Below are positions 2,916 to 54,600 of a stretch of DNA of 64,000 nt, piece by piece. The stretch is from Tubulanus polymorphus (Eukaryota > Nemertea > Palaeonemertea > Tubulaniformes > Tubulanidae). The notes beneath the pieces were generated by a model. The model worked only from the letters and a program-made list of their open reading frames with translations. It ran no database searches and was not told where the DNA came from. Location of the stretch: assembly GCF_964204645.1 (NCBI RefSeq), contig NC_134025.1, positions 10,421,001 through 10,485,000 of the forward strand, given 5' to 3'. Numbering within the stretch: position 1 is the stretch's first letter; every line of letters starts with the position of its first letter. Made by a program: the position numbers and the translations under genes.

Positions 2916-3145
2916 ATATACAGATTTACTGATATTCGAATGTTTTGTCTTACGGTAGAAAAAAGTTTTGTCCGAGTCTAAATGTTTATCTTAGATAGAA
3001 ATTTGGTCTTTCCGAGAAAAAGTTTGTTGGAAAATGTAGCTTTTACACGAATCGTGGTTTTGAAATGAAGAAAGTATATGCTTTTCACAGACAAAATATT
3101 CTCAGAATTATTCACGTTAAATTTTGCATTTGCAATGGTGTCCAA

Positions 3146-8788: not shown

Positions 8789-11700
8789 ATGAATTCAGTT
8801 ATGAACGGCCTGCCGCCGCTGTCTATGGGTAGCTCGCAGAATTTTTTGGGGCCCCAGCAGAGGTATTACGCCTCGGCGCAGCCGATGCAACAGCGGTCGT
8901 CGTTCGCCATACAGGAACTGTTGGGAATCGGACAAAATCAATGCCAAGGCAATATCGGCCCGATGGCAAATACGAACCCGCCGAGTTACGGATTGCAAAG
9001 TTTCGGCAATATGCCGCAAGTCAACGACAATCGAGCGAATTTTTGCAGTGCGGTTTCAGCGGCTACGTCCTATTCGTCATGGAGACCGGGCGGGTTGATG
9101 AGTTTTCCCCGGTTCGACTCGGGTGCTGGAGTAACGGCGATGGGCCTTGGTGGTCAGAACTGGTCGAATGACAACAGAGCGTGCGCTTTGACACCAACAT
9201 CAGGTAATTGGTTTTTTATTCACGCATTTCATCTCTCTCCCTCTAAATCGATAATTAGCGATTATAAGATTGCTTTTTAATTAGGATATTCAACAAAAGT
9301 CGTCCCTCGATTGATTTTTTACATTGATTTTCATTAGCGGAAAATTGACGGTTTTCGTGAATGAATACGAGGAGAATCAATTGAACCAAACCATTCGATG
9401 AAAAACCAAGTGAAGAATATAATCTTCGCAGCATTTTCTTCGCACATAAGAAAATCTTAAAAATTGTCTTAATTAGGGAAAAACATCTAAACATTTCTCA
9501 GGTTTTTTTATAAAACTTTTCGCATTCCGCACAACGCGCAGAATGTTTTCTTGGCTTCGATTTAATCCAATCCCGTACGAAATACTTCATCCATTTCATA
9601 GCGCATTCTTTAACTGTAAAACTTGAAAAGCGATTCCACAATCATCCATTTATGGATTCGAATATTGCGATTTAGATTTAATTTTGCATTTTGTGCAAAC
9701 GGTTCCCTTATTTTCATTTTTACGGGTCAGCCGAGAATTTCCAAAGTAAATTCTTGACGCGGGCATCTTTGTCTTATTTCTATTTTACTATAAACGTAGA
9801 CCATTCATACCACTTGTAGTCAGAGACCGCGACAGCGTGTCTTTCAATTCGTCGATTTCAATATATTTCACAACATTACTTAATTGATAAATAGCTGCGC
9901 ATATATTTATTATCAATTCACCACGTAGTATTGTGGTTATTCGACGAAAAACGACGGTGTTCCTTGTGTCTTCTCATGGACCGGGTCAAAACGCAGACAA
10001 TCTTCCTGCGTCCTCGCCACTTTCTTACATTATTTACGCGTATATAAGATCATAACTACTAATGAGTTTATTCTTCCGATAACCATGTGTCGAACATATT
10101 ATCGGCAAACACGGATTCCTCATTAAATTGATCTAGTGAAAATTCAAGTGGCAACCGCGATCATTATATTGGAGAATAAACACCGCGAAGTAAGTACGAA
10201 CAGAAACCACTCGAGAAATCTTAACCATCTGTTACCGGCAAAAGGAAATCTGCGCAACAACCGCAAAATGACGAAATCGTCGTGACACATTTAACGCTTA
10301 ATTTATCACTTATTCATTTTTGATTGCTCAATTTATATATATATATATCTTATAGCAAGACTCAATAAAAACAAAATATTCCGTCATTAAGTTTACATTT
10401 CAATAAGAAACAATTACATTTATATGATATCATGGACCCAGTTCCACAGTTGTGAGTTAGAGTTAACTCAGAGTTAAAGTTAGTTCATTTTCAATGAGTT
10501 AACTCAGAGTTAAATCTTAATTCGGAATTGTGGAACTGGACCATGTACAATAATAGAAATCTTGGAATTGACAATGAGACTAACATTATTCCAACTAGTT
10601 CGTAATCTATTTCAGCTAGAATTCTCACTTGTTCATTTTTGGAAAAAATCATCCGCACGTAAAGCATTATTTGAACAATTTGTTTGCAAATGTATTTCTA
10701 AGTTCCGTTGAGCGCTGAGATCATTTTTAAAAAGCAAGAATTCATAAAAGAAGACATATCATTAACGACAATACTGTTTCGGAATCTTTCCGTACCAAGT
10801 TCCAAAAGTTAAAATTCATATTCAATCCCGATAGTAAATATGTCAATAATAGTTTGTGGATTTCAACAGGAAATATTTAATTTCAGATAAAATAGCCAAA
10901 TACCTAGCAAAATATTAGCATTATTGTATATGATAGTAACTCATCATCAAAGTGAAAGTTTTCTATCACTGTTTTTTTTTCTACTGAAGCCCGAAGGGGA
11001 TAGAAAAATGAAGCTTTGTATATAAGTTCTATCTTTTCGCAAGAAATCTATAAACTAGAGATACAAAGAGCACTGTGATCTTCATGAGGAGGGAAGGCCC
11101 AGGACCATTCCATCCGCATTAACGATCGAACCAATACTATATGACAAGGTGAATTCGACATTATTATAAAAAGGTTATACCTGTCTTCTATTCTCCTATG
11201 GCAACTTAAGTTACATTTTTTGTTGTAGTGCTGCATGGATGCGCATTAAACCATTTTTAACGCCGTAAAAACCGTTACAGTGATGTTTATATACATTGAT
11301 ACTTATGTGTTATTCAAGGGATTTGTGTGAGTTGATGCGCACTATGTCATCAATATTGGCGTTTCGAAATAACAATTTCAATTGCGAATTTTGGCGCTTA
11401 TTTTGAAATCAAATATATTTCATAATTCTTATTTTCCTTTTGATAAATTTTGATGAGAGGATGTGCACAACGTCATCAATGTATCGGGGCTAGACTGGTT
11501 GCCGGTCAGTTCAATTTAATTATCAACATTCGATTACAAAATTACTTAATTGATTCTTAATATAACCGGATTTATATCATATTATGCATTGTCGACAATA
11601 TCAGGCAATATATGTGTTATTTTTCAAGGTATCAATAAACTTTCAAGTCAGTTTTCTCGTCCATGCACAGATTCAGTGTTGAACGCAACGCGTTGTAAGG

Positions 11701-14700: not shown

Positions 14701-17700
14701 ATCTAACGCCTGCACCCAAGTGCCAAGGCGCAATATTCGTTTCTGGGGCCGATTCTGTCTAATTGGATATCATAATTCTTGAAATTATTTTTTCTACATT
14801 CATACTTCATAGAGCAGGAGCGTCGGGGTGAAAAATTCAAAGCTATCGCGCATCAAAAAGTACGAACGTCATTAAACGATAGCCAAAAGGTACCGAGACG
14901 AATGAAGTGGCCATTATTTTTCTTTTTAAGGTCACAAAAACCTTACCGATAGACGCCGAACGTAACTAGACGCCGAACAACGGTCGAGATACGGCAAGAT
15001 CGAGCCGAACGCGTCTGCGACACTGTCTTTATCTCGGCTCATTGGAAGCAAATTAACGCGTCGTACGCTTGCGGCGTAAAATGATTCGAAAAATTGCGGA
15101 ATTAGACGATCGACGCGTTTCGCCGGTCTGACAGCGGAAATCCAAGCCGTCGATGCATTAAACAGCAATTACTGGGATTTCCCTGAAGACCAGAGGCGTG
15201 AAAAGAACCTCTTTAACAGATCGCTAATTCTGTAAATGCGCAACACACGGCTTGAGTGCGATTATTTCGTCACTGCAACATCGAATAGCTTCGAAAAAAC
15301 GCGTGCTTTTCGTATGAGATACAATCCCAAATTTGTGTGCATTTTGGATTTTGTAATGGATTTCGATATTTTAAGATTAATACGTCATCTTAGCATATCG
15401 TATTCTCGAGTTTATTTACAAAAGTATAACGTTTCAGTATATGAATTCAGTATAATATACTCATATTATGAGGTTCCTCTCCCAAGAAACATTGAACCCG
15501 TAATAATGCCATGCGCGCGTGGCGCTCAGTGGGTTGAGGGAATTTAAAAAAAAAGTATATGAAATTCTACAAAAATTATGATACATTTTGCCGGATACCA
15601 GACTACATATACATTAATTAACCTAAATTTCTCAATTTACCGATGTTAGCTATTTTTGGGATTCAAAGGAATTAAACTATCTAATTAAGCAGCTAACGAA
15701 ATAGCAAATTCTATTTTGACATGTACCACTTTCCTAACTGCATATCTATCTCAGCAAAATCATAGATTTAGACATGTGTCACCAACAAACAAGAAAAGTA
15801 CATATTTAAGATGTATATATAAGTCTACGAATGATTGTTCAAACCCACGTTCGTACATAATACGTTCGATAACCGTTTAGTTTGAGCAGCACAAATAAAT
15901 GAATAAGCGATTACTTCTGCTTTGAACGAGGACGATCAATATTGATTGTTTTCCCTCCATGTTTTCATTGATTTACTAGCTACACACTATGTCAGAAAAG
16001 GCGATGACAAAGAAACATATCACGGCATCGTGAAAATATTTAGTGGTCAGGCGAAGGATGGATATTAATGAACTATGAAAATAACTTATGAATTACTAAA
16101 ACTCGTGCGGTTGTTGAGTGATTTTTCCCTTTATTCTTGATGTTATAAACTATTTGAGAACTTAATTCATTGTGGTTTCAGTGACCGAACGTACTGGCAT
16201 TTAGTTTATTTTAAGTTCATTTCAACAACACTGAGTACTTAAATCGTAACATCGTAAGACTATAAAACACAGTAAACTATCTGCGGAATTTGAGTAGCAT
16301 ATAGCAGAGATGTTCGACTCTGTGGGATTAGGCGTCATGGGGCAGCCAGGGCTAGCGGGAAGAAAGAGGAATCAGGGAGTACACAAATCGTATTAGATAC
16401 ATGTGCGATCGGGGGATTATTCGAATATGCACACGCGCCAATTCGGACTAGAACATTTCGTACGTTTGGATTCCACATGTTTACGTAAAGTAATACCCAA
16501 TAAACCCGACAAAATCTACGTATTAATGGAGGCTTAATTGTTTTCCATTTTAGCCACACGCATTCAGTAAACGTTATACGACAACATCTGCAACACACTT
16601 TTTGGAAATCAATACTGATGTCTTCGGTTAGTTATTATATCTAATGGCGGTGTTTGACTTGTTTGTTTCTTACAGACTTAGATGACTGTAGCGTAGATCG
16701 AACCGGGTTTCTACCGCCAGGCACCAGCTGCAAACGAAAAAAGAAGAAGAGACGTCACAGGTAATGATTACAATCAGATATCAAGAGTTCGTTGTCGATT
16801 AGAAATCTTCTAGTGGAGTAGCGCTGAAGTGTACATCGACTTCCGGCGGTACCGTGCATGACCAATCGATAGTAATTGGTACCAGAGATAAGATTGAAGT
16901 ACCAATTAGAGTTGCATCCCTTCTCGCCCGATGAACTCGTTGAGCACATTTTTAGCCGCTGACAAATTCTTTCCAACCGAAAATGCGTGGGAAATATCCG
17001 GTACCGTCGTGGTATATATATGTATAATCCTCTAAATACCCTTAAAGCCCTAAATACAGTTGGAATAAAGAATAACAGTGCATGTATTATTGTACCACAC
17101 AAACAAACAATAAAAAGAACGTCAGATAATTCCTTTGTGTAAAACTGATTTTAGATTAGAGCCTGTAAACACCAGAGTGAATACGTTTTTTCTTCATCCG
17201 CATCCAATTATTGGCCGTAAATCCGATCTGATTGAAGTTCATTCTGATCTAGCTATGTATCTGTGCATTTGCCTAAACGAAATGAATGCTTCTGATCATT
17301 GTTTATCTCTTTGAGTACAATATCCTTTACGATATCATTTCATTTTCAAGGACAATCTTTACGAGTTACCAACTGGAGGAATTGGAAAAGGCGTTCAAAG
17401 ATGCTCATTATCCCGACGTGTACGCGAGGGAGGTTTTGTCTCTGAAAACCGATCTACCAGAAGACCGTATACAGGTAAAAATTGTTCACAATTGATTGAA
17501 ATAGTTTTGTCTGCGCTAGCGTTTCCGAACGAGCCTCAACGTAACTTCACGAAATGGCTAGGTTTACGAACAGTGCTCGACCTTTTCGTAAAAATCCGGT
17601 ATTTTCTCGTTTCGGAAGATGCACCCGATTCCCACGAATACCGAGAAATCTTAACCCCCCGCACTGTTGCACACGACCCCCGGGTTAGAACACAGACACA

Positions 17701-20700: not shown

Positions 20701-22732
20701 TCGCATGAATGGTGTCCCCATGGAAATCGGTGAATAGAAATTCGGTGTATGTATACTCTCCTTGGCGAGGTGCGTGAAAAGAAACATATGCTGCTCAAGA
20801 TGGCGACTCGTGAAAACAAGAATCTCTATAAAATCGCTTTTGTCGTGTCGATGTTATTTGTGGGAAAGCATTAGGCCGAGCACTGTCGAGTATTGATATA
20901 GTTTGATATATTGATACAATGACTAAAAGACAAACAAACCGAAGAAAGCTTATCATTGAGAATTTCCGAAGGGCAGTGCGACATCCTATCCAGAATCGAT
21001 GACTTTTCATAGTGGCGGTGGAGAAATCTGACGTCGTCGTTGTTTTATGGTAGAAAATCTAGTCGAATTTCGATTTAAGGGTGGATTCGTATTCAATAGA
21101 GCCAATTTAAGCTTGAATTCAAGATGAATTTAGAAACCAGCCAACCAGTATCACAGGGAACCGGATACGCGGCAGCCTCGGGAGCAACATCGTCGGAACA
21201 AAGCATCTAGACATCAAACGTCACTCGTCCGTATCGTATTACGAAATTGGCCTTCTTATTTCCCATGCCCTGCGTAGCTTATTCGATGAAATATTGTAAT
21301 ATTAGTGAAAAAGTAAAAAGCTGAATTGAAAACGCTGTTCCGAATCAAAACAGCTAACAGAAAATCAATTTCCGGTTATAGATATTCTTCCGGTACAATA
21401 AAAGCGTGGCTGTCATAACGATTTTCTGTTTGCCATTTTGAAAAACGGATTTATCGCACTTTCGAACGTGAAAACGTAAAATCCTCGGCTCCATTTAAAT
21501 GTCGATGCTTCCTCATGCGGGCTTGAGGAGCCTTTCTTTATTTCGCACGGAGAAACTGATCTTCGAATGGAGAAAAATAAATCTATGGCTGTGTGTGTGT
21601 GTGTCTATTATTTTATATGGGTTAATTATCATAGATAACACATGCGTTTGAAACGATGACCCGTTTTACGCCAACAATCAATATATAGTTCGAGTGCGTT
21701 GCATTGATTATCTAAGTGCATTTTTTAAATACGGGCTAAGCTTAACCCTTAAATAACATCATTTCTACATCGCGATGGCCCCATTGAATTTTTAATGGAT
21801 TGAATGGTTTACATGCATAGATGTTCCCATAAAGAGAACTATCATTAATGGCGTTGTTTTTAAATTTGTCTAATTCGTATAGGTCTGGTACCAAAATCGA
21901 AGGGCGAAATGGCGTAAGACGGAGAAAAAGTGGGGCAAAAGCAGCATAATGGCCGAGTATGGTCTGTATGGTGCGATGGTCCGCCACTCGTTGCCCCTTC
22001 CTGAAACTATACTCAAAGCTGCTTCTAGCGATGAAGAAAAAGACTGTGCTCCATGGTTATTAGGTAAGATATGTTGAATATTTTCGACGCCGTAAAAATC
22101 GTTATAATAATGTTTACATGCATTGATATCTATTTAGCGTTATATGAGGGGTTCTGTGCGAATCGATGTGCACTACGTCATCAAAAGTGACATTTGAAAA
22201 TAACCATTATACAATATCAAATTTTGCCGTTTATTTTGTAATTAGATATATTTCATGACTCTTATTCAATTTTTGATAAATTTTGATAATCATTTTCGGG
22301 AGGATTGCGTCATCAATAAATCGGGGCTAGACTGGTTGCCGGTCAATTCAATTCAATCGATACAAGATACACATCCTTCACATTGGAATAGATAACGCGT
22401 CGGCCATATTGCATTGAAATCTTGGAGATACGAAATATGATGAATATCATAATTTTTCGTTTTGACGATCATATTTCTATATGTAATGTCTATTAATTCC
22501 AGGGATGCATCGAAAATCATTGGAGGCGTCCGAAAAACTAAAGGAAGTGGACGGCGATAGCAGCAGCGAGAGTCCGGTCAAAGAGAAGGGCGATTTCAAA
22601 TCGGAAAGCATCGCCATTCTGAGAGCTAAAGCCCAGGAACACAGCGCTAAAGTGCAGGAGGCATTGCATCACGGCGGCCCATCTCATAAAGACGATCCCT
22701 TGGCTTCGTTAACGTCGACGCTAACGAGCTGA
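8789..22732 (+). CDS. Vsx: Vsx homeobox transcription factor, paralogue A
   Basis: Exons: 8789-9203, 16676-16760, 17351-17474, 21883-22063 and 22503-22732. They join to 344 residues. The product should be a nuclear sequence-specific regulator of the Chx10/Vsx class, known for roles in retinal and interneuron fate. In order: eh1/Groucho-binding motif FAIQELLG (residues 39-46), basic stretch [10 protein letters not shown] ending in the homeodomain arm, homeodomain 163-222 (paired-like, Gln50), CVC region ([20 protein letters not shown], then APWLLGMHRKS) and OAR-like [12 protein letters not shown] (304-315). Introns split the homeodomain after Arg5 and between residues 46 and 47. The start at 8789 is the first ATG of the open frame. 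Oddity: codon 211 (21889-21891, TAC) gives Tyr at homeodomain position 49 instead of the near-invariant Phe ([10 protein letters not shown]). Intron 1 is about 7.5 kb and intron 3 about 4.4 kb. The C-terminal tail is the shortest of the three paralogues. Confidence 0.96.
10434..10542. repeat. MITE family 1, copy 2
   Basis: Starts GGACCCAGTTCCACAGTTGTG and ends TTGTGGAACTGGACC, near-perfect inverted termini. The interior has two AACTCAGAGTTAA palindromes, as in the 3146-3240 copy. It lies in Vsx-A intron 1. Confidence 0.75.
11261..11652 (+). repeat. Dispersed repeat family 3, copy 1
   Basis: Begins at CGCCGTAAAAACCGTTACAG, continues through TATGTCATCAATATTGGCG, TCGGGGCTAGACTGGTTGCC and TTTTTCAAGGTATC, and ends at TTTCAAGTCAG. 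The same blocks in the same order recur at 22086-22356 and 31611-31928. No terminal repeats or ORF were recognised, so the class is unknown. Confidence 0.65.
12903..12962. promoter_or_regulatory. Candidate homeodomain-site cluster in Vsx-A intron 1
   Basis: Within 60 bases there are CAATTAAGCC, its near inverse GGCTTAATTAA, and GATAATTAG. TAATTA/TTAATT cores are bound by paired-like Q50 homeodomains including Vsx (family knowledge). The region is AT-rich, so chance occurrence is quite possible. No function can be shown. Confidence 0.2.
17475..21882 (+). other. Vsx-A intron 3
   Basis: 4.4 kb between homeodomain codons 46 and 47. No exon or recognisable transposon was found. It contains a short GT microsatellite at 21591-21604. 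Several open frames of 60-140 codons lack splice context and family motifs. Confidence 0.55.
22086..22356 (+). repeat. Dispersed repeat family 3, copy 2
   Basis: Shares CGCCGTAAAAATCGTTATAA, TGTGCACTACGTCATC, TTTTGTAATTAGATATATTTC and TCGGGGCTAGACTGGTTGCC with the copy at 11261, in the same order. It occupies most of Vsx-A intron 4 and lacks the 3' part (TTTCAAGTCAG) of copy 1. Confidence 0.65.
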
Positions 22733-29803: not shown

Positions 29804-32800
29804 ATGAACCTGATGCGCCCGGGAAGCCACCAACTTCATGACGTTGGGAACATTACGAATCTAGACTGTGGAAACGGCAGCACTGTTGGAAAATTCACTA
29901 CCAACGCGGTACAACGATCTCCGTTCGCTATCCAAGATATTCTAGGCCTCAGTCGACCTCAGGATAGAGCCTGCTCGTTTCAAAATGAAGCTATGTCCGG
30001 TTATTCTACCGCCAACCACATGTTTCAGGACCCTACGACGGCGTATATGGCCGCTGGAAGAATGTTACTGGGGCCTAGGAACGCTTCGTCTCATTGTTTA
30101 CCGTCCGAGCCCGGGCGATCGCAGGCGGCTTGGAACCCGAACGCCGCTTACCACTCGTACGGGACCGATTCCACGAACTACAACCTGTTTCGTTTCGGAA
30201 ATAACCAAGCCGAGCACCACATGCACCAGTCGTTAGCGACAATGCAGAACCTAGGTAGGTTTTCACTTTTGCTGCTTATCTCTTTTTCAAGTCACCCGCC
30301 TGAATATCAATTTCTATCGATTTTTCTGTCATTCATACACCCGTTCCATTCACTAGGCGGGTTTTATGAGTGCCACTGACGAGACGCCGAGCCGTCGAGA
30401 GATTAGTCGGGGCATTCCGGAATGGCGTTTTTTGTTTACGCACGCAATTCCGAATTATACTAATATCGAAACTCGAAACCGCACAAATTCTGGCGGTTTT
30501 GGACCAGCACTAGCTGGCTCCACAGTAAAATACCACACAAGTCAGTACTAATAAATGCAAAAATGTCGTTATCAATGAAATGAGACATGAAACTGTGAAC
30601 ACGACTCCAAGTCAGCGCCATAACACAAACCGTCTAACAAAGCATGTTAAAACAATGTTTGAGATATGTAACTGATAGTAAATGCCTTTTGACAGGATAA
30701 ACGCCCTCCAGTCTGGCCAATTTACGAAACAATATTTACATTTTACTAAAAATGACAAGTAACCCTGCATTAATAAGACAATTTTTCGAATACCGCTCAA
30801 GGCGGCACAGTCATTCACATGGGTCGATATCGAACATGTATGGATTCTTTTTGAGAAGAAAAGAACAGAACAAAAAAACGACATCGTCTGCACCCTTCAA
30901 CCCCTCGAAAAATACGGCGTTTAGGATGAACTGAAGAATATGCACCTGAAAGATACTTGCTTAAAATCCAATGTGTACGCCGACTTGACATGTATAAGAT
31001 GTCCCCCGCTGACAGATCGACGGCCTGTCAGTTACTGGATAGCGATACACCGAATTTTATCCCAATTTTTCTACAAGAATTCAAATCCCTGCCTTAGTAA
31101 ACCAGCGGGTGTGTCTGCTTGTGTGGTACCACTACTGTGCTGGTGGCCATTTTACGAGCCTTCGAGAGAACGGCACCCACATCCAAATGGATTACTTGAC
31201 CTATCGAAGTTAGAAATTTGACAATTTCTATTTAGACTTTTCTTAAATTGTAGATTACTTTCGTTCAGAATATCTTACGGTGTCGATTCAAATTCAGCCG
31301 CAAATTCGATTTCATTTATATGATTTTCTTTTTGAAAATACTGTGCATAAAATTGAAACCCCTGTTCTATTCAAAATGTTATCCTACGCAGCGATATTAA
31401 CTTTTAAAGTAGAAAATGCCTCAAATTGTCAGTGATGAATGTGATGGATGAAAGCGTCATTAACTGTCATAGCCGTGGCTGCGTGGTGACGGCAGATGTT
31501 AGTTCAGAAATTTATGCGCAGATGGCACCACCTACTTTCTCAAAAGTGCGCACAACTAACTATTTGGCAAATAAAAATCAATCTATTCTAGATTGTTTCG
31601 AGTTTTTTTGACGCCGTAAAACCCGCCGTAACAATAATGTTGATGTGCACTACGTCATCGATATTGGCGTTTCGAAATAACAATTTAAATTGTGAATTTT
31701 GGCGTTTATTTTGTAATTAGATGTATTTCATAACCTTTATTCTATTTTTGATAGATTTTGTTATAATAATTTTTCAAATAAATAATTACTTTTGAGGGGA
31801 TATGCACTACGTCATCAAAATAACTTTATTGATCCTTAATATCATATAACTTACGTTATATTATTTATTGTAGACAATATTGAGCGATATGTCTTATTTT
31901 TCAAGGTGTTAATTCAATTTCAAGTCAGTATTTTGTCACGCATTTGAGATTAGAGATTTTTCCAAAAGAGGATGACATCATAAGTATTGATCCACATTCA
32001 ATTGTGCCAGTCCTAAGATATATTCTTCCAATCAGTTATATGGATTTTTTAAATTGCCGTGATTTAAATCGTTCAGTGCCGTACATGGTTGGCTGTATAT
32101 ATTTCAGTGTTTTAGTTTTCTGCCTTAATATGCACTGACTACCAAGTTGAGGTCGTACAACGCGGTTTGCACTCGGTTTGCGTGTTTCATCTCATCTGCT
32201 CAATAATCTTAAGATAGTGTTAACGGCCGTTTCATGAATTTAATAAACATTTTATTATCATCTATCTAACAATTATATACTAGAAGCAATGTGTTTTTCG
32301 CGTAATTTCAAATGGGTTAATTAATTTTATATTGAACGATAAATCTACCGCCTCACTCACGGAGAGTTAGTGAGCCTTTCACCCAGATTACACTTTTTTA
32401 CATCATTTCATAAAAGATCCCATTATTGCCGCCAATTCATCATCTCGAGGGCGCATGGATGTCGAGTATTGATTTCCTGTATGGTATTCGTCTGTCGCGC
32501 GTGCGGCCCGCCGTGTGAGTGTGCCGATGAAGAGTCCTACAAGCAGCCGACATTTGCATTTTCTTTCACGCATGAACCACTCAACTTGCCTTTTCTAAAC
32601 AGTTTTCTTATTAAAGACCATTTATTCCGAGAGAAAATTCATTACCCTAATATTTCCTTCCATAATTTGCAATTATCAGTTGGAATGGCTTTAGAAGCTC
32701 TCGACCGACTCGACTTGATTGCCTAATCTTCAAACCACACGCTCAAGTACAATTTCAACATGCCAGTAACGGCACTTGTTCCTACTTGATCGGACGGACT

Positions 32801-35800
32801 ACAGCCGTCCTCAAAAACACGATGATCAGTAATGTATTCTAATATTTCCTGGCTAATATGTCATCATCAGTTAATGAAATAAGTAACACGCGACATCTTC
32901 TCGTTCTGTAATAGATTGTCGACCAGATTTTGCATTTACTGATGGCGGTACGTATGGATACTTTCCCCAAAATATATAACTCACTACAGAACTGTAACTT
33001 TTGTGATTTTTTCAAGGTGAAGATAAACAGATAAACAAAACTTATAAATGACCGTTATTTCAATCTGAAGATAGTTTTGGTGTGTCGTTTGTCAGAGAAC
33101 TGCTTGAAAAAAATCCTAAAAAGCTTGCATTATTGTGAAAAAAATGTAAAACTTCGATAAACACGATACAAATCTATAAACCAGTTATAAACTACATAAA
33201 GCATGAGAATGGCACTTGTTTTTTTGTGATGATGTTCATGTTCAAATACGTTGAGGACGACAACAAGTGGAACTGGGTCCTATCCGTATCGGGATGTGTA
33301 AAAACAGTTTCGATGCACCAGGCACTCTAGTTGATCGTTTTATAATAAAATCCACTATACCCTTCCGAGCCACTATCGATAGTATACATGGGCGCCATCA
33401 AGCACCCATCATTACAGTAGAGTCCGGCGGCATTGTCGTCTGGCAAAAGCGATGAAAAACATTTCTCACTTTTGTCAAACAGAAACTAAAAACGAGGAAA
33501 CATTTAGCTAATGTTCTGCGACTATCAATTACGGGGATCATCTAAACAAAAACGCAATCAAGGTATGTCAACAAATTGCGCTGCAGATTTAACAATCCAT
33601 TTGAGGCAAATTGCCATATGCTGTAAATTATATTGGCTCTGGGTGAAACACCGCGTTGTCGAAGCGAGCTCTGAAATCCCAGAGGCACGATAGTTGCCTG
33701 TTTATCTTTCCCAGGTAATTATTGAAAGCTGCGTCGAACTGTATCGTTGATCGAGGCGATCGAGAATGATCAACAAATATCATTAATTTTCATCGGAAAT
33801 TACCTATTTATTTCTGTGTTTGCAAACACACCGTATCCAAACTAGTGTTTGTCTAACCATTCGCCTGCACCATCGCAGTCAGTCGATCGTATATTCCGGC
33901 GAACCTTAGGCATTATTTCATATACGCTACGAAGCTATCATAAGTCCGCATGCTGGTTACAATACCGAGAACAAAAAAAACATCATCTTTCCATAATTCC
34001 GTCGGCGAAAACTGATGAAAATGCGTTTCCATTATCATTATTATCGAACCTTAATTACGAAGACTGTGTCCATATTTATGTTGTTCATGCGTTTCAAAAA
34101 TAAGATCCGCCAAGTGCTGCTTTTACAGTTTGTTCCTTACATTTCCTAGTTCTGAACGTATAAAGCATTAATCCATTAATCGATAGCATGTGACGATATT
34201 GGATTTGATAACTTCTTTTATGAACGACCCGGCCTTTATACTCACTTTTCACTTCAATTTTCCCCACTTTTTACCACTTCCAATAGCACAATATTGCATT
34301 TCATTGATGATATACATATTCATAAACATAATTTTCACTTCTGTTTAGAAAAGCATTCGTAAAGATTCTCCATCACCCATGAAAAGAGTCCAATATATAA
34401 GGTTTAGAAGATGAGTTGTATCAAAAGTACACTCTATGTGAATTTTCGGTTGTATGGATATATAGATGTGAAAGGAAAACGATATTTTGTATTCGTTTCA
34501 GGCCAAGATGAAGACAAGACTGAACTGAATTCCTACTCAACGCCATCTGCCGAACGAAAAAAGAAAAAACGCAGGCGTCATAGGTCGGTATGCAAACTTA
34601 TATCTTTCATGCTATGCTTAAACCAATTCCAGATGCAAGAATTCTATAGAATAAAAGCGAACGATGGAGAAAGATAAAAGAAAGCATTAAAAACCGAATA
34701 GAATTAAAATTAATTTTAGTGCAACAGATGCAAGAAGTATTTCTGTAGGGATGGATCTGTGACAAATTTGTCCGATCATCCTGGTTGTTTCTGTAAACGT
34801 GTATTAACTATTTGTTTGTGAAAACACATTTACTTGCTTTCGGAGCGAACAAAAGGAAAGGAGTCTTTTGCCCCACACAGTTCGCCCAGAGCACCGCGAT
34901 GAGAATTTCTCAACGAAATTCATCAAACGAATATTAGATTATATGGCGGCCAATTGCTATCAATCTTACAGTTAAATACAGCAGTGGCTGATGTGACGTG
35001 AACGGGGGACAGACGAACAAAGCTTCGCGCGAACGGAGCGTGTACAAGACGTCGGAATCTGTCCGTCCGTCGCATTCTTAAAACACCTAATGGATGACAT
35101 AGATGTGTCAATAAGAGAGTCGAAATCAAAACAAATGGGTAAACTAAGAGTCCAATCTGCCGGGCAAGAATGGACGGAAATCATATTACGCAGCCACCCC
35201 AAACGTAAATCCTATATGTAACGAATATCTCGAAAAGAAAAATGGAAATTTTTACGTTCCCGTCTTTTATATTTCTAGGACGATATTTACAAGTTATCAA
35301 CTGGAGGAACTAGAAAAGGCGTTCAAAGATGCCCATTATCCCGATGTCTATGCGAGGGAAATTCTATCTTTGAAAACGAATTTACCCGAAGATCGTATTC
35401 AGGTAATATATTATCAAGCGATTTCTACTGAACAGTTACCATTATTAATGGTAATATGTGATTTTCCATCAAATTTCATGCGCCTTGTTTGTTGTATCAT
35501 CGGACAAAGCAGAACCTATTATATACAAAGAAACAGTCGTAAAAAATTTTCAATCATAATTTGATAAACAGAATTCAGAGGCAATCTGAACGGTTTTAGG
35601 CATAGCAGATAAATCACCATTTCGAGTATAAATCATCGAATTACGTAAACGAATGCGGATCCGATTTTGCGAGCAATATCGCTGATTTAGGGCACTGCTC
35701 GATCTTAAGATTCGCATAATGAACGGATTCATGCGATCGGGCGAAGAACGTGTCCTCCAATCTCGGGTGCAAGCGCGTTCTCCGACAACAAATTGCGATA

Positions 35801-37867
35801 ACTTGCACGAGAATTAAATTATTACTGCTCTAATCTTCTCTAAAGCTTAACTCCCTGGCGAGTACACCGTACTAACAACTTATTTTTCAATTACTGCGTT
35901 TGTTCGTTCCAATGTCATCTCCCAGATCATGGTAATTTTTCAATTATCACTAATCACGTCACACGGACCGCGCAACTGCGAGACGCGCGAAACATCGCTC
36001 GATCGGTCGGGGACCGAATTCCCGTCATCTGACGGTATTAAAAACTAATCATGTCTTAAGATTGCTCTATAGTGAGTAATTGTTCGCGGAATTAATATAC
36101 CGGTGATAGATGTTTTTTAATTATTCATCGAACAATCATAAGAAGCCATCGCAGGCAAACAAGCGAAGACAAAATAGATGTTTGCTTTGCGACGCGAACG
36201 CCATTGATTTCTTGGTCGCATTTCTTGAAATAATCAGATATCGCGAGCGAGCTATCTAAACCAGCAGACTGAATTCTACTTAAAAGTAGCAAACTGAGTT
36301 ATAATCCTAAAACACATTCTTTTCCTGCGATTTTAAACAAATATTTTGAAAAAACTGCCAAATTTCAAGATACGTAATCAGGAATTTCGTTACTTTATTT
36401 TCTAAATTTCTTCGGCACTGAACGGACAACTTGCCAACGACGCTTCGGCAAGTTCTGACAACTAATGAGTTTATTAAATCAATTTGCCGAGATTAAGGGA
36501 GATTTTTAATTTGTATAAAAGCAATTCAGGCAAACTTGCCATCGTGTAATTGCTAATACCGACCCGTGCGAACGCGTTTGGCGGCGTAGCAAGAGGAAAA
36601 CGATGGCTGAGTTGAAAGTGGTTTTCATCGCTTTGTGTCACTCATTACGGAATTTACGCAGACCTAGCCTAATACCGAATGACAGGCTAAGTGCCTTTCG
36701 TTTTCAATTAATGGTGTAGAAGTATTCCCAATCAGATTCTCATCGAAATAAAAGTAGCCATCGGCAAATCGAGCAGCAACGATGACGTCACCACCGTATC
36801 GAATTTATCTCACGAATAAAAACAGCGAATAATTTCAGCGAAAGGCACTCTCCAAATCCATCGAGCCGATGAGAGAAAAAAAAACGGTATGAATTTCATA
36901 CCATTAAGTTTTTCGTAATTCATTTTGCTGATCAAATATATTTCTATCGCGCAGGTCTGGTTCCAAAATCGAAGAGCTAAATGGCGGAAGACCGAAAAGC
37001 GTTGGGGAAAATGTAGCATAATGGCCGAGTACGGTTTGTACGGTGCGATGGTCCGTCACTCGTTGCCCCTACCGGAAACTATTGTCAACTCGGCCAAAGA
37101 CGTCGGCGATCTCAAAGATTCGGCAGCTCCTTGGTTGCTAAGTAAGTTCAGTTTCATTCGATAAAAGTGGTCGCAGAAGTTGTGCAAGGTCTTTCATGCA
37201 CCACCTAAAACGCCAAGCCCTGAAATTACGCGGGAGAATGAAAATATTAAGCTGATGCCTAAAAATGTTTGTCCACTGTATTTCCAAAAGGGATTAATGT
37301 TTTCCCATGAACTTTCTTTGGGCGCCCTTTTAGTTATATGATATGCCCTATTTTGGGGGCGCACCCCTCACTGAGTCAGACCCTAGATCCGCCCCTGCAA
37401 TGGTTCTTTGATGTTTTTGATTCGATTCCCTATTAAGAAAAGTGTTTTTTTTTAAGCCAAAATAGAACCGATCCACTATTGACACAAGCGTGTGAAATGT
37501 GTGGAAACAGTCCTAAACCATCATTATCCATTTTTAAGCAGGCATGCACAAGAAATCGATCGAGGCGGCTGACCATTTGAAAGAGGCTAACGGCGCAGAC
37601 GCATTTTCGGATGATACTGACAATCCATCGCATAACAACAATAACAACGACAACAAAAACCACAACGATCACAAAAGCAAAGACGTGCGATCAAGCGATC
37701 GACGGACTGAGAGTATAGCTGCTCTAAGAGCCAAAGCCCAGGAACATAACGCTAAACTGCTCAATCGATTCGACTCGTCAGACATGATCGTCGATACGTC
37801 ACACGATCTGCTCATCGGGGGGCTCGGGGTAAATTCCGAGTACGGTGGCATGGCTCCGAATAGGTGA
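29804..37867 (+). CDS. Vsx: Vsx homeobox transcription factor, paralogue B
   Basis: Exons: 29804-30254, 34502-34583, 35279-35402, 36955-37141 and 37542-37867. They join to 389 residues, with intron positions and phases as in Vsx-A. The order is eh1 motif FAIQDILG (41-48), basic stretch KKKKRRRHR, homeodomain 174-233 with the normal [13 protein letters not shown] region ([34 protein letters not shown]) and OAR-like [12 protein letters not shown] (339-350). Distinctive features are an Asn/His-rich low-complexity linker (about 309-327) in the last exon, Asn instead of Asp in the helix 2-3 turn ([10 protein letters not shown]), and Cys in the CVC start. The donor after exon 2 is weak (AG/GTCGGT). 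The start at 29804 is the first ATG of the open frame. It lies 7 kb downstream of Vsx-A in the same orientation, a tandem duplicate. Target genes cannot be inferred. Confidence 0.96.
31611..31928 (+). repeat. Dispersed repeat family 3, copy 3
   Basis: Begins ACGCCGTAAAACCCGCC, then GTGCACTACGTCATCGATAT, GGCGTTTCGAAATAACAATT, TTTTGTAATTAGATG and TTTTTCAAGGTGTTAATTC, ending TTTCAAGTCAG. It is collinear with the 11261 copy but lacks the CTAGACTGGTTGCC block. It lies in Vsx-B intron 1. Confidence 0.65.
33268..33280. repeat. Solo terminal fragment of MITE family 1
   Basis: GTGGAACTGGGTCC-like end matching the right terminus of the 3146-3240 copy. No partner terminus is nearby, so this is a truncated remnant or a chance match. 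Confidence 0.35.
35403..36954 (+). other. Vsx-B intron 3
   Basis: 1.55 kb between homeodomain codons 46 and 47. I see no exon, repeat or motif that I can support. Confidence 0.5.
37380..37399. repeat. hAT-like MITE terminus in Vsx-B intron 4
   Basis: ACCCTAGATCCGCCCCTG is the same terminal sequence as the right end of the 2233-2601 element. The left end of this copy was not identified, so it is reported as a terminus only. Confidence 0.4.
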
Positions 37868-45618: not shown

Positions 45619-48600
45619 TCAGCTATCCATATCCACTATTTCATCTTCATCGCCATCGTTGTCGCCCTTATCTTCATCGCTATCGGAAATGCCTGTTTTA
45701 TTCGGAACGTAATTCGGCCGTGTCGAGTCCGGGGATAAATCGTTAGCAGAGTTCGTTACGTTTATTATTTCGTCCGTGTCGGATTCCGCATCCGCATCGG
45801 CGCCTGCGTGCGACGCCGATTTCATCGCTTCGAGAACTTTCGCGCTGTATTCTTGCGCTTTAGCGCGCAACGCGGCGATGCTTTCCGATTTCAGTTCGTT
45901 TTTGTCCCTTTCGTTTTTGTCGGCGGTCAAACTTTCGTCGGATACCGATAAATCATGGGCGTTCATTTTTTCGGCTGCTTCTTGGGATTTTTTGTGCATG
46001 CCTAAAAAATAAATAATATAACAGGTTCTTAATGTCCGAGTCCAGCTGTCGACATATATATTCCCTTTATCTTTAGGATTAACCATTAAACGGTCTGGTT
46101 TGTCAACGGTCATTTTGATTTTCAGCGGCTTTATCCAAAATTTGATTCATCGCCTTTTTATACCATGACCGTGGCAGCTATTAATAAACCATGGTGGTTT
46201 GAGAAAAGACATAAAATAGCGCTAAAGAAATGATATGAAAATATCCCCATTTTGTCAAAATGGTGATGGTGAAAATATGACCGAAGTAGGTATCTAAACA
46301 GGTGCTGCCTTTTCTCGTCAAGAAAAAGCGGAAAGATTATCGCCTTGAATGTACAATGTGTAAGGTTATCGCTTTCGATAAGTGAAATAGATGGAAAAAT
46401 TTCGACTAATTGAACTGCTATTGAAGAGGGGCTGTAAGAAGGTTGATTCATTTAAAAAAAGGAAAGGAACGAAAAGGTAATGCGGGCTGTCTTAGGTTTT
46501 GAGTACGGACAGGTGTGCTAAGCACCCGAGGGTTAGGACACATCTTGTAATGCGTATGAAATTGACGAACTATTTTCGTATTATGCTCGTAAATAGCAGA
46601 TTAAATGCTTCACACAGATTTTAATGGTGTATCAAATCATCTACAACAGAACATCCAATAAACCGAATAGAAATCCGTGTTGCTTCATTAAGTGGCTGAT
46701 TTAATCATGTCTTTATGCGACTATAAATAATTTCGTATTCTATGTTATTCTAACAGCATATGTTCACTCCAAAACTTAGCTCCCGAAGCAAAATGCAATT
46801 CGCATGGTTTTGAATGCGCAGCGACAATAGATCGTCATCGCCGAGCGCCTTGGGCCATCTTTCAAATATAGGATCCGTAGTCTAATGAAGGGGTTTTAGT
46901 GTTTATTCTTCACGGGTTATAAGGGAGAATTCACGCGCACATAAGAGGACTGGACTTTTCTAAGCAGCCTGACTTCATGGAGCCAAAACATTTCTCAAGT
47001 GTTTCGGACCAGCCCATTTTCGGAGATCGTGAGACGCGGCGTTCCGCGCGAGAAAGCGCCGTGAATTGAAGTTGTCTTCGAGCCATTAAGAAAAAAAATC
47101 ACCGTAAAGAATGTCGAACAAGAAATGGTAGCCAATGGTTGCCGCTTCATTTCCGACAAACATAATTCTATTGAATAAAACGTGTACGAGATATTAAGTG
47201 CGACGTTGACATTTTTAAGCGAATTTGGTTGCTTCGTAACAAAGGTGTTGGCTGGACGTTGATGGTTGGGAACCGTTGGTGTAATAGCAAGAAAGGTTGA
47301 AATGAACTACGTTACTTACTCAGTAACCACGGAGCGGGTTCCTCTTCTTCGTCTTTGCTTTTAAGTATCGTTTCCGGAAGCGGCAGGGAATGTCTGACCA
47401 TGGCGCCGTACAGGCCGTACTCGGCCATGATGCTACTTTTGCCCCATTTCTTTTCGGTTTTTCGCCACTTCGCTCGGCGATTCTGGAACCACACCTGTAA
47501 CGACATACCCGTCGGAAACATAAGCTACCTGAATATCGAACGAGATGAAAGAACACTGGCGTCGAAGTTCAAACGAACGCGAAAAACAAAGTCGACATTG
47601 TCTACAAAACGCAAGTCAATTATTGCATTAGTTACAGATCGCATTTGATCCGAACTTTTTGTATATACTGGCGATCGATATCCACGATTCTTTTTTTTTG
47701 TCGTAGCGAATAATGGTTTTATCTCGAATTTAAGTAAGCTATTGATATATTAGTGCGCGAGTGAAGAGACCATTCTTCTAACTTCGTAGTTTTCAAGTAC
47801 GAGTATAATAGGAAGTTCCGGTGACTGGTGAATGTGTAACACGAGGGCGTCAAATTTGTCGGAACGACGTACAAACGATGCTAAGATCGGAAATCGTCAC
47901 GAAGAGCTCGGCGCTTGTCCGGAAATCTTTAGAATATCGACGCTCAATGGAAATTGCCAATTACCAGGTAGAATATACGGGCGTAATATCCTAATTATCG
48001 GGGTATCGAGGGTTTGGACGGGATCGATCGTCCGCCACGTTTTTCGCCAAGTCGACATTGTTTTAATTACCTCGCGAACGAGTAGAAAAGCACGACCGTA
48101 CAAAAGGCAATTATATTTGAGGCGTTGTGTCACAAGCAACCGGCATTGACTTGGACGACTGGGGGTAAGATTGAATTGGTCACGCCCGACACTGAAGTCA
48201 ATGAACTATAAGCTACTTCTGATACATCTCAAGTACCTGATACAGGCTTTCGTTCGTCAAAGTTGATGGCACTTATTAGCGAAGATTTTCTAATGCCCTC
48301 GATTTGTCAAGTGGTATACATCGCCTTGTAAGTAATTATCATCGTTTTCAAGATGTTTCTTCTGCTTTCGTTACAATACCACACCGCACACTCTGATAAT
48401 CGAAGTTACGCAAGTTCTTATACAACGAAATTCGTTGTTTCGTGAATTCTTGTCCTATACACAACAGATGTTACAAACTCTGAGAAAAACTAGCTGACAT
48501 ATTTCAAACTCACAACTCCGCCTGAACGAGTTTCTAATATATAAAATTTTGTCAAATACGTATAATGTCTAGCTATATTACGGATATGCGGCAACGCTAC

Positions 48601-51600
48601 CCGATTTACAAAATAGAGCAACCCATGTGAACATAAGTTGCGATGTGAAAATTCCTAATTAGACCGTTCAAAATGTGTCGTTTTCCCAAGAGCTTCAAAC
48701 ACGCAACAATGAACCGAGAAGCCCGACCCGAATTCGGAATCAAAGCCCGCATATTACAATCGAAATTGGCCACCTATAAAGGCACCGCATCAGAAATAAA
48801 TTGATCATCGTTAATTAAAATGTTCCAGTCAGTCAGCTTGGACGAAACCGCATCGTATACCCGATTGATCTCTCGGCGGGAGAGGATACCGGCATAAACT
48901 GTCTTTTTTATCGCGTTATCGACTGAACAACGGTCAATGCGCCGCCATCCTTTTGTTCCCGCTTCAGAAATCGAGTGATAAAGCGCAAAACCTGCAGCAT
49001 CAATTGCAGTTTTCATTTTCATTACTATCGCGTGCATATATGTAATTAGACATCATAAAATGTTATTGCACGCAAAAAAGATTAATTTCAGGGATAAGGT
49101 TAAGTGTCCGTATGCCATCATTAAATACTTATGAATCATTCTTTAGAAAATAACTCATTCGAACCTGAGAGTTCAGGTTCAATGATCCACTTCGGAAAAA
49201 CTGGATAGACTATTTGATAAGACTTCTTGTGTTTGGGTACTTCATCAAGAATTCCGGCCCAAAGAGTGCATCCTGGCATCGTCGCATCCACTATGATTAA
49301 TACTTATTCCTTCGCCATTTTAAATTTTATCAACTTGGAAGAATATTATCTGATGTATACGTTAATCATTTTCTATCTAGTTTGATGCCGATTTATTTAA
49401 TGACCTTTAATGACCAAGACAGGTTGTTACTGTTAAAATTCGCGAGATACGCGAACAGCGATCTGTTAATGCTCTTGAAATATATATTGGACTGATTTCC
49501 GCGGAAAGAATAGGAGAAAAATCGGATCCAGTTCTGTGTCAATTTTGACCCTAGAGTTAAAACATTGAAAATGAACTGATTTTAACTCTAACTCTAAATC
49601 ACAACTGTGGAGCCGGGCCCTGTAGTTTAAATTAAAGATTTATTTACCTGTATTCGGTCTTCTGGTAGATCGGTTTTAAGAGACAAAACCTCCCTCGCGT
49701 ACACGTCGGGATAATGCGCATCTCCAAATGCTTTTTCTAATTCTTCCAACTGGTAACTAGTGAATATCGTCCTGTGTGATACAGTAAAATAAGGAAAAAA
49801 CTGTTGAAATCGCAACGAAAGCCTATGTTTCAAAATTCCAGTGACATTGTTATCATCTGAAACGGACTTATTTGAACTCTAGGGCAATAATCGAATTTTC
49901 AATGAATAAAAAGATGCGCATATAATTAAGGAAAACTTTAAGAAATTGGCCTATTCTTTGGTAGGCGGTTTTTTTAACGACAGCCGCGACTGTGCTATAA
50001 ATGATAATGGATCCTTTATAACTTCCAGTCAACTTGGCGCATAAGTTTCAGTGCCTGGTTTTTCTGAATTTGACGCTTTACACCCACAAAATGTTCGAAT
50101 AATTAGGAAATAAGCGAGGAAATGGGAAAGAACGCGCGTTAGTCATGCTATCTGGCTGACCGGCAAATCAAACCGGGCCTCATTGTCTACAGCCGCTTTC
50201 CCGCGCTCTTAATCCGTTAAAAGGCGTCGTCAAGATTTCCATATTCCTTTCGGCGATTAATTATGAAAAACGGGCATGCCAGGGATGCCCCAGTTGGTGG
50301 TGGTGGTGCGAGCACAAGCGCTAATAGATTGCAAATAGGCGACGGTTTTTATATGAATCGAAATATTTTCATCAAGTCTAGCTCTCAGTACGATTTGCCC
50401 GGAGTGAAATCATGTTTCAACATCATGTACATATTAGAATTTAACCAGGCAGACATCTTTCAAATGCAGAAACCTGGAACCAGTTGCATAGTCATGGCTT
50501 AGGTTTAGACCATCCCAGACCATCGTAGTTCCATAACCAATCTAACAACAAGACCAGTCTTAAGACCACTTTTGAGTCATGACTGTGCAACATGGCCCTG
50601 ATCCAGTTGCCCCCCGCAGTTGTGAATTAGTTCATTTTCAATTAGTTAACTCCTAAATCAAATCTTAACGTAGAACTGTGCCCTGGAGGTTTGGGGATTA
50701 TTTTACTAAACAGTTTTCTTCAACTTGACAATCAATATCTTACCTGTGTCTTCGCTTCTTTTTCTTCTTTTTGTTCGAAAGACTTTGCTGTAGGTTTTTA
50801 ACTTCGTGACATTCCTCGAGCGTATCTGGAATGAAAAATGTATTTTTCATGACAATGCACGGACTTTCACTTCAGTTTTATAAAATGGTTGTTATACTTT
50901 GCACGGGTTGTTTGTACACGACCGAGTACTAAGACAACTACTCTTTTGAACGCTAATGTTGGTGAAAAATAAAGCTACAGCGTTTATTTTGTTATAGATC
51001 ACAGCAAAGCATAAGTAGTCAAATATTTACTAGACATGCATCTCGTTTTATAAACAGAACGGAGCAAGAGATCCCATCAGAAAAGATGACTGCAGGCCTC
51101 CGTTTGATAGGCATCACTGATATGACAGTGGAAATGATAAAAAACTTCAAGTTGAGTTAAGCGTCAGTGAATGAAATCAAGGCAATTTGATGATGGGATT
51201 TATGGTGTATGGAGACAGCTCGTCATAGCAAAAAGTATTCAACAAATCTTATTTCTTTTTAAGAAACAGTCGCCGTCTAAGTCTGTATACTGTCGATCTT
51301 AACAACGATATTTCATTATCCGATGCTTAATTAGTTAAATCATAGGCATCGCGTGTTACGGCGCTCAAATGCACGCCTCGTTGGTAAATGCTGCATTGGC
51401 GCTGTTCGAACGGCATTGTGTTTGATGTAGCTTGCGTGACCACTGCCGAATCGGCAGAAAAATCCGGACATATTAGTGCGATCCGTTAACGCCGAGAATC
51501 TTTGTTGTGCGTATTAGCAACTGCAACTAATGCAGAAAGCAACTTGATTAAATGGTAATAAGACGGGCGACGGAGCGGTAAAATTGGCCGAGATTTTTTA

Positions 51601-54600
51601 CGCAATTGCACCCGCACCCGCAGGTTCATATGGAGCGGCTGATCGAGGGCAAAGCAAAAATATCGAACAAACTACCGCACAGAAGTCGCAAGATATCAGT
51701 AAAATTTCATTGTATGTTATTTCAGTATTGAGCAATGATGTAGAGGACAAAAGCCGCCATTTCAATGGAATTTACAGTATAATAGGCTTCATAATTTGAG
51801 AGCGTACGGCCCCTCACACCTAATGGAAAATACCAATAATATCTATAGGTCACTTTAATGAAATCTTGAACATTTCTAGGTTCTATCTTTGCTAATCAAT
51901 CTCGTCAAATTTGGGAAGATTGCGCTACACAATTAAAATGAAAGTAGTCTTCCATCAGCGTTTAACCAAATGAATCAAATGGAAATGCTTGAAATACAAA
52001 TGCACACAAATCCTTTGCAAATACTAATGATGGATTCGCAGAACTTGTTCACTCAACAAGAAATTTACTGAATAAGATATTGCATCTCTTCAAAAGAATT
52101 ACCGAATTCCCAACGACCTTGCTGAAAGTAGATCGCATGGAGAAGAAACTTATCACGATGTCAGTGAATGACGAAGTCATAAGTCCATATTCGGGGCCGC
52201 GGTTTCTCGATCATCGCATATGGAAAATAGTAATTTTTTCAAGAGGACAGAAGCGTCTATTAGGCAATGAGTTTATCATCGATTTAGCGAGTTATCGCGC
52301 TCGTCAACACAACAAGAGGAGAGGCGGATGGAACTTCATGTGTTTGACGACGAGTTGCACTCGAGTACGGAACTTGTATCGGGATCACAAACGACGCAAT
52401 CACAGTTTCAATTATATCCAATTAATCACTATTTGAACTGTCACTGACGATGATGTTAAAACCAACACTAAACTGTCTCCGCAATTATGACGAATTAATT
52501 AATATCGCGCAGTGGGAGAAATAGCGAAAACGGCTTCTTGATATTGATGTAACACATATACACACAATACAGGAAGAGAGACAAGTATCAACCCTCCTTA
52601 ATACCACCCTTGCGGATGCGTCAAGTGTCGACATCATATTTAGGTTTTCCTAAATTCATAATTCAATTGAAATCTATTTCCGAGGAAGAATTCTTGAGTT
52701 GTCAGACGATTCAAATGGCAATTGCCCATGCAGTACCAAAAACTAATACTTGATTTTGCAAATAAATAACGTTTTCAGCGTGCACAATGGCCTTGTCGTA
52801 AACTCTCTCTGACTTCAATTATAAACGAAAGTTTGGAACTTAAGGATAACAAGATATAAATATATATATATCTTAGAATTCTTTACTGTATCAAATATAA
52901 AATTAGGGGAAATAAAGAATAAAGACATAACTCTGTGACTATTTCGATGATAAAGCCTTCAAAATATCTCCATACATTTTTTCAGAGGACATTACATTGA
53001 AAATTCAGCTCGTAAACAAGGACGTAAGATATTGATGCTGCGACTTGTTGAGCCAAGATACTGGGCTAACGCTGTATTCTTAGGTACGTGTCGACCTCAA
53101 CTTGTCCCCTGCCCGTTCACACGGCTACCCCGGCTATATAGTGAAATAATTAAACTCACTGAAATAGGGAAGTCCCACTGCGCTGTCGCACAATTACCTT
53201 TTCTAAACCACCCGAATAACACTTTATTCATTCGCTTCCCGTCGTTTTACACAGAGCGTCGTCGTTTTGTACTTTTGGTCCAGAAATTCGTACGCTATAT
53301 ACCCGAGCCTTAAAATCCCGAAGTCCCGCCGCGAGTTGCGAATAAGTTCCCATTGGTTCAAACCACGAATAACGTATTGGACCAGATCCGTCCTGCGGGG
53401 CTCTTTTGAGACGCTTGCGTGCGCCCCTTAATTAACAGGGGTATTTTATAATAAGCCAGAGCAAGATCGAAATGGAAAGGTCTATAGTTGAAATAGACAC
53501 TTATGTAGACAACACCTACTTCATGTGTAATACGCAAAGTTTAGTGTCTTGCCGTGATTCTTAATAGAGTTTTTACGTACTAGATAATATACTTGCACGA
53601 ACACAGCGCTCGGATCGTCCAAATTGGCTTATTTCGGTAAACACGCGTAACAGAGCCGTAATGAATGACTATTCCGAGACACAGCGGTCGCCGCTGTACA
53701 GCACAGTAATGGGGCATTACATTTTTGTCAACTTATCTATGACGAGGACAAACATATTCAATTTGGTCAATTATGACGATCGATGATTTTTCAATAGAGC
53801 GTATTTAATTCAATTTCGTCTAGTAGGTCTTTGAAAAAACAAGCCAGTAGATTATTGTCGAGCCCAAATATACGCAAATGGATTCATCTTAATACATCTT
53901 AGTCCTCCAAAACCAATCCAAATACATATTTGGAGAGATTTGGGTCAGAATTTGGCAACTTTTTTGACAAAAAGTTCGATGTCCAATATAACTTTGTTTT
54001 ACGTGAACAGAGACGCAATTTGTATCCTTTGTAACAGTTCCAGAGGATGCAAATTGGATCTCTGCATGGAGTTGAATGAAAATGAACGCTTATGTAAATA
54101 TGATTGCTATAGACTCTCCGGGTCCTGCAGTTTTTATATGATATCTTTTAATCTTTTATGCCCATAATTCATAGCATCTTTTACGATAAACAATTGAAAA
54201 ATATATGAAAATAATTAACCTTTTCGTATATTTACGTATATATCGACATTAAAAACCGTTGTACAAATTTCACCAGCGATCCCAAGAAAGCGATTCGAAG
54301 TACCAATGGGATATTTATGAATCTTACCTCGGTTTTCTGAAAGTGGTCTGTAGAGTTCTCCGTTTTGACTTAGATTCAGCATACTCTGTACTGAATGCGC
54401 AGGACTCGACAGCGCCATGATCGCCGATGGCCATGATACAACCGGCGCCGAATGGGGGTCGATCCCGACCCTGCTCGTGTACATCGGGTTCGTCAAAAGA
54501 GCTTCGTGATGTTTGCTTGTCAGCGTACTGAACGGGCGTTCGTGGGCCCGGTTAAGTCCTAGAAGTTCTTGAATAGCAAACGATGACCGCGGATGCGAGT

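Follow-up and report, generated by a model that had tools for sequence, protein, structure and literature searches.

A stretch of 62 nucleotides in the homeodomain exon is nearly identical between two otherwise diverged Vsx paralogues, Vsx-A and Vsx-C, and this patch is most probably a short ectopic (interlocus) gene conversion tract between two old, inverted copies that lie about 32 kb apart. The genes are located in the window C1:10421001-10485000, the whole stretch of 64,000 nucleotides that was analysed, in a 268-Mb genome of 77 contigs. A preliminary description of the locus had read the patch as gene conversion, and this reading is supported by tract tests in which mismatches are penalised, by the saturation of silent sites between Vsx-A and Vsx-C outside the patch as against their near-identity inside it, and by the ordinary divergence of the third copy, Vsx-B.

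Vsx is a control gene of the eye and brain. The window contains three paired-like homeodomain genes, Vsx-A and Vsx-B on the forward strand and Vsx-C on the reverse strand, with Vsx-A and Vsx-C arranged tail to tail and Vsx-B between them (Table 1). Their exons are predictions from the sequence, according to which each copy has its homeodomain divided among exons 2, 3 (residues 6-46) and 4 (residue 47 onwards), an octapeptide-like motif in exon 1 and an OAR-like block in exon 5. The hand-joined Vsx-A protein (exons 2-5) scores 80.9 bits with the Pfam Homeodomain model, as a paired-like homeodomain protein, and its closest solved relatives by sequence, among the best 60 of 118 matches, are ALX4 and aristaless. 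Vsx genes carry an OAR motif near the C-terminus; in Vsx-A, this motif reaches 24.3 bits in Pfam against a cut-off of 20.1, and in Vsx-B and Vsx-C it is recognised by alignment only. The intron between homeodomain residues 46 and 47, a position interrupted in many PRD-class genes, is predicted in all three copies. After the homeodomain, the three copies have in common a conserved block of 23 protein letters, which may resemble the CVC domain. According to a passage of PMC3447932, a CVC domain is discernible in VSX sequences only.

We also looked for further Vsx copies or duplicate haplotype contigs and rejected both: a 39-aa exon 3 query had 24 matches in the accessible part of the genome, of which the three Vsx exons showed 95-100% identity and the rest at most 67%. 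In search of outgroups, contigs of prokaryotes and of viruses were scanned with a 90-aa query; there were 95 and 15 pattern matches, respectively, none of which was confirmed as a relative. Two residues stand out in the homeodomains. In Vsx-C, residue 21, which is encoded a few bases before the 5' edge of the patch (49723-49725), is a glycine instead of a lysine, a difference that takes two base changes. In Vsx-A, residue 49 is a tyrosine and not a phenylalanine (WYQN, 21889-21891); in 69 other homeodomain matches of the genome with the W-F/Y-x-N pattern, this position is F in 67 and Y in two.

Table 1. Positions of the patch, of the predicted Vsx features (window coordinates) and of three other linked homeobox pairs (contig coordinates).
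Feature	Position	Strand	Basis or remark
Patch in Vsx-A, homeodomain residues 24-44; tract by tests 17417-17465	17406..17467	+	1/62 differences to Vsx-C; permutation tests
Patch in Vsx-C, perhaps the likelier donor	49655..49716	-	alignment
Vsx-A exon 3, homeodomain residues 6-46, intron after 46	17351..17474	+	open frame, AG/GT borders, translation TIFTSYQ...DRIQ
Vsx-B exon 3, third copy for comparison, outside the tract	35279..35402	+	14/70 differences to Vsx-A in 3' part
Vsx-C exon 3	49648..49771	-	translation as in Vsx-A except K21G
Vsx-A exon 4, aligned part: homeodomain from 47 and region after; Y at 49	21883..22020	+	alignment
Vsx-B exon 4, aligned part	36955..37092	+	alignment
Vsx-C exon 4, aligned part	47357..47494	-	alignment; silent divergence from Vsx-A saturated
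Vsx-A exon 2 end: last bases of K/R-rich homeodomain start, before GT donor	16750..16760	+	predicted by pattern
Vsx-B exon 2 end	34573..34583	+	predicted by pattern
Vsx-C exon 2 end	50744..50754	-	predicted by pattern
Vsx-A exon 5, OAR motif block	22598..22654	+	Pfam OAR above cut-off (hand-joined protein); alignment
Vsx-B exon 5, OAR-like block	37703..37759	+	alignment only
Vsx-C exon 5, OAR-like block	45835..45891	-	alignment only
Vsx-A exon 1, octapeptide-like motif SFAIQELL	8900..8923	+	
Vsx-B exon 1, octapeptide-like motif PFAIQDIL	29921..29944	+	
Vsx-C exon 1, octapeptide-like motif SFAIQELL	54560..54583	-	
NK1-like tandem pair L014/L013 (flanks L043/L044)	C2:6935330-6935500, C2:6953608-6953778		identical homeodomain proteins, 167/171 bases alike
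SIX1/2-like pair L040/L041 (flanks L045/L046)	C1:11337127-11337279, C1:11380321-11380473		
Irx-like inverted pair L109/L111 (flanks L122/L123)	C3:1216636-1216809, C3:1133773-1133946		

The exon 3 sequences of the three copies were aligned without gaps. Between 17406 and 17467, Vsx-A and Vsx-C differ at one base in 62, as stated in the preliminary description, whose coordinates in Vsx-C also map exactly. This difference is at 17444, and the next one follows at 17468; over the same 62 bases, Vsx-A and Vsx-B differ at 13 positions and Vsx-B and Vsx-C at 14. In the 5' half (17350-17405), 14 of the 56 bases differ between Vsx-A and Vsx-C, seven between Vsx-A and Vsx-B and 13 between Vsx-B and Vsx-C, and in the 3' half (17406-17475) the corresponding counts are 2/70, 14/70 and 16/70. 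The earlier counts (about 13 of 55 for A-C and 7 of 55 for A-B in the 5' half, about 15 of 70 for A-B in the 3' half) were therefore right to within one. When the genome was searched with a 32-base probe taken from the patch, allowing three mismatches at most, it had two matching sites, the Vsx-A and Vsx-C patches themselves.

We then examined the silent sites of exon 3 and 46 codons of exon 4 by the Nei-Gojobori method. Outside the patch, silent differences between Vsx-A and Vsx-C number 40 over 39.5 sites, as against 2 over 16 sites in 17406-17474. Their silent divergence is thus about 0.14 in this interval but has reached saturation in the 5' portion of exon 3 and in the aligned exon 4. Such a local silent near-identity between otherwise diverged paralogues is the mark of a conversion tract. 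Among degenerate residues shared by Vsx-A and Vsx-C, the codon is identical in 21/23 within 17406-17474 vs 18/56 over the remainder of exon 3 together with the aligned exon 4 (Fisher 1.0e-6), and the longest run of such codons is 20 when up to one mismatching codon is allowed (permutation p = 5e-5) and 12 when none is (p = 0.0034). The patch codons common to both copies include AGG, CCA, CCC, CTA and TCT, each of which makes up at most 0.15 of its residue's codons.

Tract tests were carried out with our own scripts, modelled on GENECONV and 3SEQ, on three sequences from one genome, with p given per pair or per mosaic. The preliminary description had proposed testing the three aligned exons for conversion and had considered that the lack of a significant tract would speak against it. 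With mismatches penalised, the GENECONV-like test found a significant A-C tract at 17417-17465 in exon 3 as well as in exons 3 and 4 together (p from 9e-5 to 0.0056 over all variants): 7e-4 in exon 3 and 9e-5 in exons 3+4, in each case both by site and by codon, 0.0044 and 0.0011, respectively, for silent codons, and 0.0056 for silent sites in exon 3. Strict runs without any mismatch gave 0.021 and 0.0052 for sites, 0.072 and 0.019 for codons and 0.043 for silent sites in exon 3, and were not significant on silent codons alone (0.13 and 0.059). No B-C tract was significant (p at least 0.07). In the 3SEQ-like test, Vsx-A as the mosaic gave p = 0.0033 by codon and 0.009 by site in exon 3, and 0.0033 and 0.013 in exons 3+4, and p was at least 0.029 with Vsx-B or Vsx-C as the mosaic. 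After a threefold correction, the GENECONV-like results with mismatches stay below 0.02, and after a sixfold correction (both directions, three mosaics) the 3SEQ-like result stays at 0.02 by codon and is not below 0.05 by site. Hence, when mismatches are penalised, the switch of closest relative within the exon comes with a significant permutation test, as is characteristic of a conversion tract. The exon 5 and exon 1 blocks showed suggestive switches that were not significant as further tracts (exon 5 by site 0.16, 0.10; exon 1 0.07, 0.30), which shows how noisy short blocks are. In the exon 5 OAR block (22598-22654), the first six Vsx-A codons equal those of Vsx-C exactly, and from there on agreement with Vsx-B is more frequent, without significance in the 3SEQ-like test.

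The homeoboxes of the genome were compared pairwise, in a set of 115 matches that consists of 112 fetched sequences and exon 3 of Vsx-A, Vsx-B and Vsx-C; as 150 of the 170 first-look candidates were scored, the genome has at least this number. Six sequences with stops were kept and strands were set by hand for the resulting 6555 pairs; a smaller comparison involved 40 sequences (37 loci and the three Vsx exons, with L040-L042 left out) and 780 pairs, and for the homeobox translation set a script assigned the strands by guesswork. When one mismatch is allowed, the longest five runs among the 6555 pairs measure 135, 122, 87, 62 (Vsx-A/Vsx-C) and 54 nt, and all of them are between genes less than 100 kb apart. 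The other 49 of the 54 pairs linked in this way (less than 100 kb, one contig) have runs of at most 32 nt, and in the remaining 6501 pairs, which lie farther apart or on different contigs, no run exceeds 35 nt. This comparison covers homeobox genes only; a forkhead search of the genome, meant as a non-homeobox control, gave 32 matches. On contig C6, a run of homeoboxes lies on one strand and may be a spiralian Hox cluster, to judge from part of the translations.

Besides the Vsx pair, the NK1-like, the SIX-like and, weakly, the Irx-like pair appear patch-like from their sequences, on which these family labels, as we assign them, are also based; for all four leading pairs other than Vsx, the flanking sequence was inspected. 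In the NK1-like pair, 191 bp are alike (95%) and the neighbouring sequence is unalignable; the block gives p = 0.0077 for the strict run and 0.059 with one mismatch. In the SIX-like pair, 15 identical shared codons follow each other within a 557-bp stretch that is 79% alike, in an exon otherwise silently diverged (p = 0.0015 strict, 0.0046 with one mismatch, 0.021 with two). In the Irx-like pair, 258 bp are alike (90%) with unalignable sequence beyond, and the internal run is weak (p = 0.026 with one mismatch, 0.12 with none). In the fourth pair, L116/L118, the similarity extends over 967 aligned bases (93%, with 14 mismatches and otherwise gaps); these genes are recent duplicates, and the pair was rejected as a patch. 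We tentatively suggest, as a possibility somewhat short of even, that short, homeobox-limited conversion is a recurrent event in this genome between linked paralogues from a number of unrelated homeobox classes (Vsx, NK1-like, SIX1/2-like, Irx-like). If so, the DNA-binding region would be homogenised while the remainder of each gene diverges, and one could measure directly, in one genome, how conversion is balanced against divergence in regulatory genes. The other leading linked pairs could also be young duplicates with fast flanks.

For the Vsx patch itself, an unlikely alternative, though the best placed of those considered, is that the silent sites of residues 24-44 have been under strong selection in Vsx-A and Vsx-C and that this selection was lost in Vsx-B, so that the near-identity would be shared ancestry held fixed, for instance because the exon contains a splicing enhancer or another regulatory element or because an RNA fold is conserved. 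A constraint confined to Vsx-A and Vsx-C is given some room by the data, which are the three copies of one genome, and by the near-identical stretches in other linked homeobox pairs of the genome. It would, however, have to set in inside the exon and end near the exon border, and the longest near-identical run among homeobox pairs that are not closely linked is short. Vsx-B is about as far from Vsx-A and Vsx-C in the patch (12 silent differences over 15.5 sites for A-B, 13 over 15.5 for B-C) as elsewhere (23.5 over 40 and 35 over 40.2), which argues that the stretch is not frozen family-wide, and a synonymous constraint acting on the whole family is accordingly disfavoured. A known RNA element was also sought, and no Rfam family reached its gathering score within the window.

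A second alternative, which we regard as very improbable, makes Vsx-A and Vsx-C the true sister pair and ascribes the A-B similarity in the 5' half and in exon 4 to conversion or rate differences. The protein identities are in its favour (A-C vs A-B: 87% vs 74% in exon 4, 50% vs 40% in exon 5), as is an A-B tract that is nominally significant when exon 3 is tested by itself (by codon 17370-17397, p = 0.0065; by silent codon 17370-17394, p = 0.026). However, the tests on exons 3+4 gave no significant tract for A-B (0.12, 0.43), the residues common to Vsx-A and Vsx-C could be retained ancestral ones that changed in Vsx-B, and in exon 4 and the 5' half the A-C silent sites are saturated whereas those of A-B outside the patch are not (pS 0.59). 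Moreover, a recent A-C event at the patch would be needed regardless. Scarcely credible, finally, is a lucky run of identical codons between diverged copies, by chance or codon bias: the strict silent-codon tests, which are not significant, are in its favour, but the A/C run ranks fourth among the 6555 homeobox pairs, the codon scan gave p = 5e-5, and codon usage in the other homeoboxes of the genome (the 112 sequences minus the six with stops) predicts 8.6 of 23 identical codons where 21 were observed (P(>=21) = 2.4e-8), which rejects codon bias. The near-identity of Vsx-A and Vsx-C in the patch exceeds chance.

Gene conversion may have come about when a break or gap in the homeobox exon of one copy was repaired from the other Vsx copy, with pairing through the homeodomain exon, where the two copies had kept sufficient similarity. 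The copied stretch would have measured about 49 to 62 bp, perhaps passing from Vsx-C to Vsx-A, and given the constraint on the protein at residues 24-44, the product would have changed little and the copying would have been tolerated. The one silent change (two up to the exon end) may have arisen since the copying, or may mark the tract edge; as it contrasts with saturation elsewhere, the event probably took place long after the A-C split, in terms of relative age. When the window was compared with itself (E up to 1e-5), Vsx-A and Vsx-C shared their exons and no intron similarity beyond repeat-like matches. Exons would therefore be the only places where homologous pairing could occur, in keeping with a tract that ends within an exon. 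The adjoining half of the exon, in which a quarter of the bases differ (14/56), offers low similarity for strand exchange, and this speaks against conversion.

We next considered the direction of copying. Were Vsx-A copied over Vsx-C, the A-B and B-C identities in the patch should be as high as that of A-B elsewhere (33/53 identical codons), and were Vsx-C copied over Vsx-A, both should resemble that of B-C elsewhere (20/54). The patch has 10/21 for A-B and 9/21 for B-C, neither significantly different from the identity outside (Fisher 0.30 and 0.79, respectively). The donor likelihoods favour copying from Vsx-C to Vsx-A about 1.5-fold with the A-B counts and about four-fold with the B-C counts, which are not independent of each other, and thus give a hint only that Vsx-C was the donor and Vsx-A the recipient.

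Several other features were observed in the window. Repeat-like sequences at 10434-10514, in the Vsx-A intron region, and at 49544-49620, in the intron just after Vsx-C exon 3, are 80% alike; a further copy is located at 3139-3245, and the repeat is not near Vsx-A exon 3. A dispersed repeat family at 11253-11520, 22080-22357 and 31639-31932, with one copy shortly after Vsx-A exon 4, is probably a mobile element, and the inverted similar sequences that flank Vsx-B (27980-28181 and 38181-38421) are probably mobile-element remains. An open frame at 51-560 looks, by its translation, like a portion of the CAD carbamoyl-phosphate synthase region.

Gene trees of homeodomains, on which the classification of such genes is commonly based, are misled by conversion within the homeobox, and duplicates that are old then appear young. 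A full-text literature search, mostly of papers outside subscription, returned no report of conversion in Vsx. Homeobox conversion is described, in the parts of PMC3199776 that concern it, for the linked, inverted Dlx-a/Dlx-b genes of Capitella teleta, with GENECONV tracts of 150 and 31 bp. The same parts cite a homology of at least 50 bp as needed for conversion and warn that homeobox conservation can yield short tracts by chance. Vsx-A and Vsx-C, being linked and inverted, fit the pattern discussed there: both cases involve lophotrochozoan homeobox paralogues in which near-identity is limited to the homeobox and the remainder is diverged. Unlike in Vsx, the longer Capitella tract extends into an intron and the comparison took in other annelids, whereas the Vsx switch is revealed by a third paralogue in the same genome, in one species, and the tract lies within an exon. 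Gene conversion in hexapod engrailed/invected, which PMC3199776 mentions, likewise affects a homeobox pair, although of another family and phylum. As outlined in PMC8208926, repeated conversion maintains the similarity of the mammalian TPRX1/TPRX2 genes, PRD-class homeobox paralogues like Vsx, to a greater degree in the portion that contains the homeobox; there, repeated events are documented in many species, whereas Vsx offers one tract in one genome between copies that are otherwise silently saturated. In summary, the Vsx-A/Vsx-C patch is most probably a new instance of a known process, in another gene family.
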